Origin: Natronomonas moolapensis 8.8.11
GTDB taxonomy: Archaea; Halobacteriota; Halobacteria; Halobacteriales; Haloarculaceae
Reading direction: 5' to 3'
Assembly (NCBI RefSeq): GCF_000591055.1
Contig: NC_020388.1
Coordinates: forward strand, 62,001-126,000
DNA length: 64,000 bases
Shown piece by piece: positions 11,771 to 58,470 of the stretch. The translations under genes and the position numbers were made by a program. Position 1 is the stretch's first letter; each line of letters starts with the position of its first letter. The notes beneath the pieces are model-generated. The model was not told the origin of the DNA and searched no databases. It saw only the letters and a program-made list of their open reading frames with translations.

Positions 11771-12208
11771 ATGACGACCACCCTGGCCGACGGCGGGGGA
11801 CTGCTCGCACACGTTCTCGTGCCGGTCGCGACCGAGGAGGACGCGCTGGCGACGGCGCGGGCGCTCGAACCCCACGATCCCGGCCGGGTGACGGTCCTCC
11901 ACGTCGTCGAGAAGGGCGGTGGCACCCCCGACAAGACGCCCGTCGAACAGTCCGAGGAACTCGCCGAAGCGTCCTACGCCGCGGTCCGGACGGTCTTTCC
12001 CGAGGCCGACGACCACACCGCCTACGCCCGCGACGTGGTGGGTGCGATCTTCGAGGCCGCCGCCGCGGTCGACGCCAGCGCCGTCGCCTACCGCTCCCGC
12101 GGCGGGAACCGCCTCCTCCAGTTCCTCTCGGGGGACCGATCGCTGCGGCTCGTCACCGAGGCGGAGTGCCCCGTCGTCGCGTTGCCGGGCGACTCCGAGG
12201 GGGACTGA
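11771..12208 (+). CDS. Universal stress protein family, degenerate nucleotide site
   Basis: 145-residue Usp-like protein: HVLVPVATEEDALATARAL at the N-terminus, VTVLHVVEK, and a C-terminal SLRLVTEAECPVVAL. The usual G-x2-G-x9-G-(S/T) ATP-binding stretch is degraded here to RGGNRLLQFLSGDRSLR, so ATP binding is doubtful. It is divergently transcribed from the permease-Usp fusion across a 172-bp region with two TATA boxes. Its TGA stop overlaps the first two bases of a 112-bp palindromic repeat. Confidence 0.85.
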   Translation: MTTTLADGGGLLAHVLVPVATEEDALATARALEPHDPGRVTVLHVVEKGGGTPDKTPVEQSEELAEASYAAVRTVFPEADDHTAYARDVVGAIFEAAAAVDASAVAYRSRGGNRLLQFLSGDRSLRLVTEAECPVVALPGDSEGD

Positions 12209-12318
12209 TACTGGTGGACGAAATCAAATAACACCGACTCACGAGTGAGCCGCCGGTCGCTCCGTCGAACGGCGTGATCCTCGTGCGTCGTGTGTATATT
12301 CGTTTGTCTGTCAGTATG
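12207..12318. repeat. 112-bp palindromic dispersed repeat, copy A
   Basis: Begins GATACTGGTGGACGAAATC and ends GTTTGTCTGTCAGTATG. The ends form imperfect terminal inverted repeats (ATACTG...GGAC against the complement of GTC...CAGTAT) and the whole element is nearly palindromic. Copies of exactly the same length lie at 19105-19216 and 58299-58410. CACGAG and CTCGTG hexamers bound a 34-bp core. It encodes nothing and resembles a MITE. It starts at the usp stop codon and lies between usp and msrA. Confidence 0.85.
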
Positions 12319-12426
12319 AGCGGCTCCGATCGAGAATCGACAGCGAAGACGGGGACTCGATCGGCCGTCGGATTGTTCGTGCGGCCCAAGGCGACGATTC
12401 AAGCCCCTCGAACCCCAAACGGAGGT

Positions 12427-18414: not shown

Positions 18415-19026
18415 TCACTCGAAGAGCCCCTCGACGTCGGCCGCCCGCGACCGTCGTCGCCCGACGTGCTCGCGCAATCGCTGTCGGACGATCGGCGTCG
18501 GATCGCGCACGCAGTCCAGCGTGAGCGTCACGAACGGGCTGGACTCGTCACCCGCGTCGAGGTCGGATTCCGCGTAGCCGAGGGCCGCCCGGAGCAGGTC
18601 GTCGTCGTCCGTCTCCGCGACCGCTTCCGCCGCCGCCACGACGCCCCCCGGGGTGAGGTCGTAGACGCCGACCGCCTCGCCGCCGAGGCGGACCTCCGGC
18701 GGTGACTCGCGGGTAGCGAGGTCCGGATCCGTGACGAGCCGCCCGAGCCACCCGACGAGCGCGTCGACGGCGAGCCGCTCGCGGACGCCCGTCCCGGTGT
18801 CCCCACCGGCGTCGATGTACCCGACCGCGCTTTCGGCGAGGCCGGCCGCGCCGGTCTCGTTGCCGCTCCGCGATTTATGTACGGCGGCGCACGCCTGTAT
18901 CAGGCCTTGTAAATAGTCGTCGCGTTCGCCGGCCGGCGCCTCGAGCCACAGCTCCTCGAGTGGTTCGTGGGCCGCGAGGTGGCGGCCGACGTTGTAGAGG
19001 GCGATCCCGACCCGCAGCCGATCCAT
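18415..19026 (-). CDS. DUF309 domain protein
   Basis: 203 residues. Residues 1-65 carry the DUF309 signature: GIALYNVGRHLAAHEPLEELWL followed by DDYLQGLIQACAAVHKSRSGN. This is an all-helical fold of unknown function with conserved His/Glu. The C-terminal half is haloarchaea-specific and acidic. The ATG at 19026 is chosen; a longer frame crosses the promoter (AT-rich near 19050) and palindromic repeat copy B. Confidence 0.85.
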   Translation of the reverse strand: MDRLRVGIALYNVGRHLAAHEPLEELWLEAPAGERDDYLQGLIQACAAVHKSRSGNETGAAGLAESAVGYIDAGGDTGTGVRERLAVDALVGWLGRLVTDPDLATRESPPEVRLGGEAVGVYDLTPGGVVAAAEAVAETDDDDLLRAALGYAESDLDAGDESSPFVTLTLDCVRDPTPIVRQRLREHVGRRRSRAADVEGLFE

Positions 19027-19104: not shown

Positions 19105-19216
19105 GATACTGGTGGACGAAATCACATGGAACCGATGCACGAGGAGCACGCCGTTCGACGGCGCGACCGGCGGCTCACTCGTGCGTCGTGTGTACGTTCC
19201 TTTGTCCGTCAGCATC
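19105..19216. repeat. 112-bp palindromic dispersed repeat, copy B
   Basis: Starts GATACTGGTGGACGAAATC and ends TTTGTCCGTCAGCATC. The first 19 bases equal copy A, and the TIRs are better preserved here. The 34 bases between CACGAG (19138-19143) and CTCGTG (19178-19183) are the reverse complement of the same segment in copy A with two mismatches, while the flanks are collinear. It lies between the GNAT gene end and the DUF309 promoter. Confidence 0.85.
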
Positions 19217-19259: not shown

Positions 19260-19661
19260 TTATATATCGCCGCCCCCGCGGCCGCCGTCCGACCTCGCCT
19301 GTCCCGACCGCCGCCCCCGACACCGCCCGTCCGAACACCGCACATCGAACCCCAGTGCAGTATAAAAAGCCCGGACCGACGGGTCGAACCCCGCCGACAG
19401 CGAGGGGCGACGGTCGACCGCGGCCTCGACCAGCGCCGTTCCGACGCCCTGCCCGCGCCGGCCGGGGCGGACGGCGACGGCGTCGACCTCACAGCCGTCG
19501 AGGACCAACGCGCCGACGATCCGGTCGCCGGCGACGGCGACGAGCGTCGACGACCGGGCGAGGCGGCCGCGCTCGACCGTCAACAGCGCTCCCTCGAGGA
19601 TCGACCGGGCGGTCACGTACTCGTCGGGCGTCGCGGGACGGACGGCGACCGCGCGGCTCAC
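19260..19661 (-). CDS. GNAT-family N-acetyltransferase
   Basis: 133 residues with the GNAT acetyl-CoA loop RPGRRGQGVGTALVEAA (R-x-x-G-x-G/A), a preceding strand VDAVAV, and SVRAFYTALGFDVR near the C-terminus. The GTG start at 19661 overlaps the TGA of the SAMP2-like gene (GTGA), so the two are translationally coupled. The substrate is unknown. Its fusion-like neighbourhood with a ubiquitin-like modifier suggests a shared pathway but does not prove it. Confidence 0.85.
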   Translation of the reverse strand: MSRAVAVRPATPDEYVTARSILEGALLTVERGRLARSSTLVAVAGDRIVGALVLDGCEVDAVAVRPGRRGQGVGTALVEAAVDRRPSLSAGFDPSVRAFYTALGFDVRCSDGRCRGRRSGQARSDGGRGGGDI

Positions 19662-19876: not shown

Positions 19877-19920
19877 ACACCGGGAGACGGAATCGAGTGG
19901 TTTCAGCGTGCCGTTCCGGC

Positions 19921-19954
19921 CGCCCGGTCGGTACGGTCGCCCGGTCGGTACGGT
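19921..19954. repeat. 17-bp perfect direct repeat, two copies
   Basis: CGCCCGGTCGGTACGGT occurs twice back to back (19921-19937, 19938-19954). The repeats lie between the minus-strand TATA-like tract at about 19958-19970 and the start of the SAMP2-like gene (19876). They are therefore in its leader or at its transcription start, and could bind a regulator. Confidence 0.85.
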
Positions 19955-19959
19955 CGGAT

Positions 19960-21000
19960 TTATATATCAGCCAGGCCACCCCGGCGCTGGCTCGCGAGGC
20001 GCCACAGCGACCGGAGACCGAGCGCGACCACGCCCGCGCCGACGCCGAAAACGACGACGGAGACGAGCGTCCCGAGGTACGGGACGACTCCGAGAAGCGT
20101 CACCCCGACGACCCCGACGAGGAGCGCGAGCGGGCGGTTCCCGTACTCGGTGTACGAGAGTGCGATCGATCCCACGACGTACTGCCCGTAGACGCGGGCG
20201 ACCCACCCCAACACGAGCGCCGAGAGGAGTCCCCCGACGGCGAGCGGGAGGCCGACAACGGTCACGGCGAGGACGCCGACCGCGAGGAGCGCGCCGACCG
20301 CCGCCGCCAGCCCCACGCCGACGGTGTAGACCGGCTCCGCCCGCGCCGTCTCGGTCGCCGAGTCGGCAAACCGCGGCGCGACCCGGAGGAGGATCAAGCC
20401 CAAGAGGAGGTCCCCGACGACGAGGGCGGCGCCGACGACGGCGGCAAGGATCTCGGTCGGCGGCCCGAGCGCGAGGTCGCGGCCGTCCTGGATCACCCCC
20501 TCGACGGTGCCGCCCCGGTCGTCGAGGTCGCCGACGTGATTGAGGCTCCCCCCGACGGTCGCCGTCTCGGCGAGGGTGACCGACCCGGCGACCGCCGAGG
20601 CATCGCCGCCGACCCGCCCGGCGAGGGTGACGTCTCCGGCGACCGCGCCGAAGGAGCGCTCGACGTCGGCCGTCTCCCCGACACGGACCGACCCGCCGTA
20701 GACGAGGACGTTGCCGCCGACCGACCCATCGATCGCGACCGACCCGCCGTAGGCGCGGACGATCCCCGTCACTTCGCCCCCCTCGGCGATACGGACCGAC
20801 CCGCCGTAGACCCGGAGGTCGCCGTCGACCGTTCCTTCGACCACGACGGTCGCGCCGGTCGCGGAGGTGTCTCCGACCGTCTCTTCGGGGCCGACCTGGA
20901 CCGACCCGCCGACGAGCGTTTCCGCGGCGACCGCACCCGGGAGGAGGGCGAGCGAGACGACGAGGCCGACGAGCGCGAGGCGGGCAACGGAGCGTCGCAT
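19960..21000 (-). CDS. Bactofilin-like (polymer-forming) membrane protein
   Basis: 346 residues. A signal peptide ([20 protein letters not shown]) leads to about 150 residues of short repeated beta-helix turns of the form G-x-V-x-G-x-(V/L)-x-x-YGGSV, as in the bactofilin or DUF583 right-handed beta-helix. At least five transmembrane helices (residues 190-330) follow. Polymer-forming sheath domains joined to a membrane anchor suggest a cell-surface scaffold. It is upstream of the SAMP2-like gene on the same strand with 83 bp between, so they may be partly co-transcribed. Confidence 0.8.
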
Positions 21001-21126
21001 AGCGGTGATCTAACCGCCGCCGTGTATATGTTTTCCGCGTCTCGTCGAGCGGAGCCAGCGGCTCTCGGAGGCACACACAGCCCGCCGTCTCGGGGCCTTT
21101 ATGCCCGCCCCGACCGACGTCCGGAT

Positions 21127-22101
21127 ATGAGCGAGGCCGCTGCCGAGGACCGCGGGCGGGAGATCTGGATCGAGAAGTACCGCCCGCAGGCGCTCGACGA
21201 GATCGTCGGCCACGAGGGCATCACCGAACGGCTGAAGCAGTACATAAATCAGCAAGATTTGCCGCACCTTCTGTTCGCGGGGCCGGCCGGAACAGGGAAG
21301 ACCACCTCATCTATCGCCGTCGCCAAGGAGATCTACGGCGACGACTGGCGGGAGAACTTCCTCGAGTTGAACGCCTCCGACCAGCGCGGGATCGACGTGG
21401 TCCGCGACCGGATCAAAAGCTTCGCCCGCGCCTCCTTCGGCGGCTACGACCACCGGGTGATCTTCCTCGATGAAGCCGACGCCCTCACTTCTGAGGCCCA
21501 GTCAGCGCTCCGCCGGACGATGGAGCAGTTCTCCGACAACACCCGGTTTATTCTCTCGTGTAACTACTCCTCGCAGATCATCGACCCGATCCAATCGCGG
21601 TGTGCGGTGTTTCGGTTCTCGCCGCTGGGCGAGGCGGCGATCGAAGAACAGATCGAGGCCATCGCGGAGGCCGAGGGCATCGAGATCACCGACGACGGCA
21701 TGGACGCGTTGGTGTACGCCGCCGCGGGCGACATGCGAAAGGCGATCAACGGGCTGCAGGCCGCCGCCGTCGTGGGCGGCGTCGTCGACGAGGAAGCCGT
21801 CTACACGATCACCTCGACGGCCCGCCCCGAGGAGATCGAGACGATGGTGTCTGCGGCGCTCGACGGCGACTTCACGGCCGCCCGCGCCCAACTCGACACG
21901 CTGTTGACCGACGTCGGGATCGCCGGCGGGGACATCATCGACCAGATGCACCGCTCGGTCTGGGAGTTCGACCTCGGCGAGCGCGAGGCCGTCCGGCTGA
22001 TGGAGCGCGTCGGCGAGGCCGACTACCGGATCACGGCGGGGGCGAACGAGCAGATCCAACTGGAGGCGCTGCTCGCGTCGCTCTCGCTCGATTCTGAGTA
22101 G
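21127..22101 (+). CDS. rfcS: Replication factor C small subunit
   Basis: 324-residue AAA+ clamp-loader subunit: Walker [10 protein letters not shown], Walker [10 protein letters not shown], sensor 1 LSCNYSSQI, arginine-finger SRC motif [10 protein letters not shown], and [15 protein letters not shown] at the N-terminus. It loads PCNA with RfcL. No intein interrupts it, unlike several archaeal RfcS genes. The ATG at 21127 gives the standard MSEAAA start; an in-frame extension to 19897 is only antisense to the bactofilin-like gene. TTTATG lies 20 bp upstream. Confidence 0.97.
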
Positions 22102-38803: not shown

Positions 38804-38907
38804 CGAGCACGGTGGGATTCGAACCCACGGCCATCGGATCTCTCCCCACACCGGAACACCGGCGCGGTTAGAAGTCCGACGCTCTGTCCTAGCTGAGCTA
38901 CGTGCCC
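38804..38907 (-). tRNA. tRNA-Arg (TCT) with 29-nt intron
   Basis: Acceptor GGGCACG pairs with CGTGCTC; D arm GCTC...GAGC; anticodon stem TCGGA/TCCGA; T arm GTGGG-TTCGAAT-CCCAC. The anticodon loop CTTCTA|A, anticodon TCT, is interrupted after position 37 by an intron (38840-38868). The precursor folds as bulge-helix-bulge: TCGGA/TCCGA, bulge AGA, helix CTTCT/GGGAG, bulge AAC, then an 8-bp stem closed by TGTT. Mature length would be 75 nt. Confidence 0.92.
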
Positions 38908-58178: not shown

Positions 58179-58298
58179 ACGCACCGTTCGATAGCCGAGG
58201 CCGAAAAGGGATGCGTTCCGGCGGCGGGGACGACGACTTCGACGCTGTCGGGGGTGTCCATCGGTTCGGTACGGCGACGAATCGCTCCGACCCGGGCT

Positions 58299-58410
58299 GA
58301 TACTGACGGACAAACCAATGTACACACGACGCACGAGGCGCACGCCGTTTGCTCCGTCGAACGGCGGATCACCCGTGAGTCGGTGTTATTCGATTTCGTC
58401 CACCGGTATG
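58299..58410. repeat. 112-bp palindromic dispersed repeat, copy C
   Basis: In reverse orientation to copy A: on the minus strand it reads CATACCGGTGGACGAAATC to GTTTGTCCGTCAGTATC. The flanks match A closely. The inner 14 bp, bounded by GCCG and CGGC, are inverted relative to A (12 of 14 match when reverse-complemented). It is between the divergent trm1 and AbrB/PIN genes. Confidence 0.85.
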
Positions 58411-58470
58411 ACACGCTTTGTAAAGTAATACGTGATTTTAATAGTAAGGAGAGACGATGAAATGTAAGAG

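Follow-up and report, generated by a model that had tools for sequence, protein, structure and literature searches.

We find that a short palindromic mobile element carries an interior that has been inverted repeatedly and independently at two nested stem levels, and we consider it probable that hairpin-guided polymerase template switching produced these flips. Three copies lie in the window (the whole 64-kb stretch of DNA that was analysed). Copy A (12209-12316, + strand) is in the canonical state, a 108-bp TACTG...CAGTA unit with its interior at 12246-12279; it is flanked on the + strand by TGA target duplications at 12206-12208 and 12317-12319, the left one doubling as the stop codon of a Usp-like gene (11771-12208). 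Copy B (19107-19214, +), whose neighbours are a DUF309 gene (18418-19026, -) and a GNAT-type gene (19260-19661, -), has canonical arms around an inverted 34-bp interior (19144-19177, -), bounded on the left by CACGAG (19138-19143, +) and on the right by CTCGTG (19178-19183, +); these inverted-repeat arms lengthen outward to CGATGCACGAG and CTCGTGCGTCG, which pair at 10 of 11 positions. The interiors of A and B match at 32 of 34 positions as reverse complements versus 16 of 34 in the forward sense, while the outer arms are collinear (27/33 and 29/35, versus 6/33 and 19/35 when swapped), and the figures of the earlier note, which had described this inversion, were exact. Interior orientation is well defined, because an interior compared with its own reverse complement agrees at just 16 of 34 positions in either copy.

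Copy C (58301-58408, -; its target duplications, read as TGA on the + strand, are 58298-58300 and 58409-58411) has canonical arms and middle, and an inverted inner loop: its 14-bp core (58348-58361) matches that of A at 12/14 as reverse complement versus 6/14 forward, again exactly as first reported. This is most simply explained by inversion of the 6-nt loop (CTCCGT to ACGGAG; element columns 52-57, 58352-58357, -) within a 9-bp stem, CGCCGTTCG/CGAACGGCG, plus one base change. The core type from which C would have started occurs in a congener, the sister species G017, where copy L224 has the same 6-nt loop inversion.

Alignment of the copies from the window's genome and G017 defines the unit as a 108-bp near-palindrome, TACTG...CAGTA, which is non-coding, dispersed, multi-copy and palindromic over nearly its whole length. 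Both ends carry terminal inverted repeats, TACTGRYRGAC, and most copies are flanked by identical 3-bp TNA duplications (TGA, TCA, TAA or TTA). Short, non-coding and multicopy, with terminal inverted repeats and a target duplication, the element is, judged by these features, a non-autonomous MITE-like transposable element. It has about 40 copies in the window's genome and about 70 in G017, of which 35 and 67 respectively are near-full. Gene calling was heuristic, based on acidic codon usage, and by it 16 of about 41 copies sit precisely on the stop codon of a gene, which the duplicated TGA re-creates; because the target duplication coincides with a TGA stop (as at 12206-12208), insertion preserves the stop and the hairpin lands directly after the gene. 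A search of the window's genome for paired 15-nt ends (at most 1 mismatch) at transposon spacing yielded no autonomous partner, and around PF01609 transposases, the one family searched, there were neither element-like ends nor a TNA duplication.

In the passages of one account that deal with them (PMC3119063), the MITEs of Haloquadratum walsbyi are similarly short and non-coding, with terminal inverted repeats, target duplications and tens of copies; the present element differs in that we found no transposon with matching ends and in that its length is nearly all palindromic, and we found no interior flipping of the MITEs in those passages. The small mobile repeats (SMRs) of Haloquadratum, as described there, are likewise short and mobile with terminal inverted repeats unmatched to a known transposon, but they lack a target duplication (PMC3119063). 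The clear 3-bp duplication rules the present element out as an SMR.

All copies were scored against four templates (canonical, middle-flipped, inner-flipped and double-flipped), and the score margins were wide. The comparison covered 96 near-full copies: 87 canonical, 7 with a flipped 34-bp interior and 2 in which only the inner loop is flipped. The near-full copies of the window's genome comprise 29 canonical, five middle-flipped (B, L031, L032, L033 and L034) and one inner-flipped (C), to which a partial copy that looks flipped (L064) is additional. Pattern counts spanning arm and interior, which are unbiased, put the left junctions of G017 at 65 canonical and 2 flipped, L224 with its inverted inner loop being among the 65. 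A set of 39 G017 loci selected as resembling copy A contained no apparent flips, which reflects biased sampling, as the unbiased junction patterns do show them. None of the flipped copies is matched by an orthologous copy at its site in the other species; L031 and L196, considered as an orthologous flip, share an intergenic region and differ in insertion point.

That the flips are real inversions is clearest in L191 of G017, which matches the flipped consensus at 107 of 108 positions and the canonical one at 91 of 108, with every one of its 16 differing columns fitting the reverse complement. This excludes independent drift within a palindrome, which the earlier note had named as the outcome that would overturn it. 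Similarly, the interiors of L031 and L032 are exact reverse complements of that of canonical L036. Artefacts arise readily when hairpins are sequenced or amplified, and G017 is available as a draft assembly in about 30 contigs; nevertheless, we give practically no credence to the proposal that chance base changes or misassembly in a palindrome account for the apparent flips, given L191 and given flips at five unique sites in the window's genome, which is complete in a single contig, some of them (B and L034) old enough to have accumulated further changes.

The flips also did not descend from one event. A single clade of flipped copies was rejected both in an arms-only tree (AU p=0.0018) and with interiors re-oriented and columns 31/78 omitted (AU p=0.013), although trees from such short sequences are weakly resolved; flipped L033 and canonical L043 form a sister pair with support of 100/94. 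Columns 31/78 aside, unflipping L191 yields exactly the sequence of the most frequent G017 type, and unflipping L192 yields that of canonical L088, private base 65T included; L191 and L192 thus represent two independent recent flips. The simplest account has at least four middle flips, two per genome, and the two inner flips (C and L224) look independent of each other, although the test did not reject a single origin (p=0.26). State calls, trees and the L191/L192 pair thus uphold, as a repeated and independent occurrence, the idea that one element had flipped at two stem levels.

Two stretches of stem in the element pair perfectly: CGAC[x]CACGAG/CTCGTG[x]GTCG encloses the 34-bp interior, and CGCCGTTCG/CGAACGGCG the 6-nt loop. 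The stems measure 9-11 bp, and x, a mismatch at columns 31/78 that reads T/C in G017, marks where inverted tracts end. In L192 (G31/A78) both sides are swapped, so that the tract takes in the next pair outward and is at least 36 bp long; the boundary originally placed at CACGAG/CTCGTG is therefore not always respected. In L031, by comparison, the tract ended inside CACGAG, because G31/T78 is retained as in its canonical relatives L036 and L038. In L191 (T31/A78 versus ancestral T31/C78), column 78 is the sole departure from the flipped consensus, a one-sided change that leaves the arms complementary. Two canonical copies, L110 and L225, have T31/A78 as well, i.e. a one-sided arm change without a flip, and because such copies exist the arm change of L191 may have preceded its flip, making two events rather than one. 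Both middle-flipped copies of G017 are altered at columns 31/78, as against 2 of 58 canonical copies there (Fisher p=0.003).

Switch points are thus variable and arms are homogenised on one side, with no fixed crossover site. This disfavours a fixed-site recombinase, from which neither varying tract ends nor a one-sided change would be expected, whereas template switching predicts both. A site-specific invertase acting at the short inverted repeats, flipping the core reversibly between alternative states, would explain recurrent inversion between inverted repeats at two nested levels, and was one of two mechanisms offered by the earlier note. We judge it very unlikely: besides the variable tract ends (L031 inside CACGAG, L192 beyond columns 31/78) and the one-sidedness of L191, the states are heavily skewed to canonical, far from 50:50, and a survey confined to serine recombinases (PF00239) found no match in the window's genome and three in G017. 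A 6-nt loop is also, to our knowledge, implausibly small for synapsis by known invertases. The other mechanism then offered, template switching, is the one that fits best.

We suggest that single strands of the element fold into a long hairpin with the two perfect stem stretches, and that replication may stall at this hairpin or cruciform, whereupon the nascent strand would pair with the matching stem on the opposite strand, copy the spacer from there and go back to its own template. The spacer would end up inverted because it was copied from the other strand. A jump across the spacer would invert it, a jump over one arm only would render that arm complementary to the other, and the expected outcome would be flips at each stem level together with occasional one-sided arm changes. 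Flipped copies would then persist fixed, like ordinary mutations, and are presumably neutral.

Template switching of this kind is known from yeast, where it occurs recurrently between short inverted repeats, inverting spacers and homogenising arms, and where spacer inversions are seen only with arms exceeding 9 bp (PMC8604942). Here too the arms are perfect over about 9-11 bp and the spacer between them has been replaced by its exact reverse complement, the events are recurrent and independent, and arm homogenisation sometimes accompanies spacer inversion; unlike the yeast cases (PMC8604942), they concern a haloarchaeal mobile element, spacers of 34-36 bp and 6 nt, and two nested stem levels. 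The 34-36-bp spacer, itself a hairpin, counts against template switching, since it is far longer than in yeast. The minute hairpin-loop inversions of chloroplast DNA, as one paper summarises them (PMC3123225), are also small, lie at stem-loops and can recur at one site, and they correlate with hairpin stability; those are single loci compared across plant species, whereas here many dispersed copies occur in one genome. Our literature search, which covered open papers, found no archaeal case of such a template-switch inversion.

The many near-identical copies also raise the question of whether interiors were copied in from other, oppositely aligned copies by ectopic gene conversion or template switching between them. 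Such exchange is possible at L033, because this copy joins the arms of subfamily 'a' to an interior base (column 53 G) typical of subfamily 'b'. As a general explanation we hold it to be unlikely: the interior of L192 has the private base of L088, a canonical copy that also matches the arms of L192, L191 fits one type throughout, and the perfect homology at tract ends is merely 6-11 bp, which is short for homologous recombination.

Alternatively, the flips could arise during transposition, when the parts of a hairpin or single-stranded intermediate might be joined or copied anew in the opposite order, rather than during chromosomal replication. The G017 flips do fall in a young, near-identical burst, whose 61 copies show 3 inversions and 33 distinct base variants. 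We find this origin improbable to a marked degree, as the searches around PF01609 transposases revealed no transposase or mechanism for the element, and replication accounts more simply for L110 and L225, in which one arm changed and no flip occurred. Somewhat less doubtful, with an outside chance of being right, is an active process associated with the element, either tied to transposition or due to an archaeal hairpin-processing enzyme, that flips the core well above the ordinary template-switching rate; inversion would then be part of the element's life cycle.

Returning to replicative template switching as our preferred explanation, we note that a regulated switch is not supported in this element. 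The suggestion that flipping could generate alternative states has no support, as no locus is known in both states and the predicted hairpin energy is nearly unaltered by either flip (-58.7 versus -59.5 kcal/mol), so that a switch function is not indicated. Orientation within palindromic repeats is thus an unreliable sign of a recombinase or phase switch. Rather than a switch, the approximately 100 copies of one hairpin in two genomes constitute a replicated natural experiment for a known kind of mutation, which gives direct access to the ratio of inversions to point changes (3 to 33 in the G017 burst), to the switch points and to how flipping depends on stem length.

The family-fixed stem mismatches (columns 6/103, 7/102, 12/97 and 22/87) are G.T on one strand, not A.C, so this strand would fold better as RNA. 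RNA-level selection may be read from this excess of G.T over A.C, but the trend is at the family level only, and rare variants look about even.

Beyond the window's genome and G017, the only trace of the element in searches of 20 congeners and 146 family members is one relic, in genome G005. Other genera of the order have short weak matches of 24-60 bp, which were left out of the counts; those examined have no arms. Plasmid, phage and viral-contig collections held no match to the element, and an Rfam search returned tRNAs only. Counting the core pattern in the window's genome added no further intact copy and one extra site with 3 mismatches. The GC content of this genome (0.67) and its acidic codon usage are as expected of a haloarchaeon. 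The exact core pattern has seven bacterial matches in named genomes, in a comparison of the core without its flanks, and these were set aside as chance because the core is GC-rich and the element is otherwise unseen outside the genus.

Several individual loci are of separate note. L172, near the start of G017 contig C3 (approximately 70-190), consists of five head-to-tail units of 23 bp, TGATACTGGTGGACGAAATCAAA, each being the target TGA plus the element's left end. L052 (2717966-2718079 of the window's genome) and L113 of G017 are inserted at an identical base, each next to a duplicated TGA target, and belong to different subfamilies, reflecting either more than one insertion at this site or homogenisation within G017. 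L167 (2118700-2121400) and L168 (2064900-2069000) of the window's genome are interrupted by sequence resembling IS200/IS605-type ends.

Elsewhere in the window, a 734-aa reading frame (19897-22098, +) has AAA and replication factor C domains only past residue ~418, with no Pfam match of their own for its first 400 residues, and three adjacent 51-nt direct repeats, 73-78% alike, lie at 20664-20822 within a long reading frame. At 38804-38907 (-), a tRNA match extends over 104 nt versus a 71-position model, which suggests that this tRNA contains an intron.
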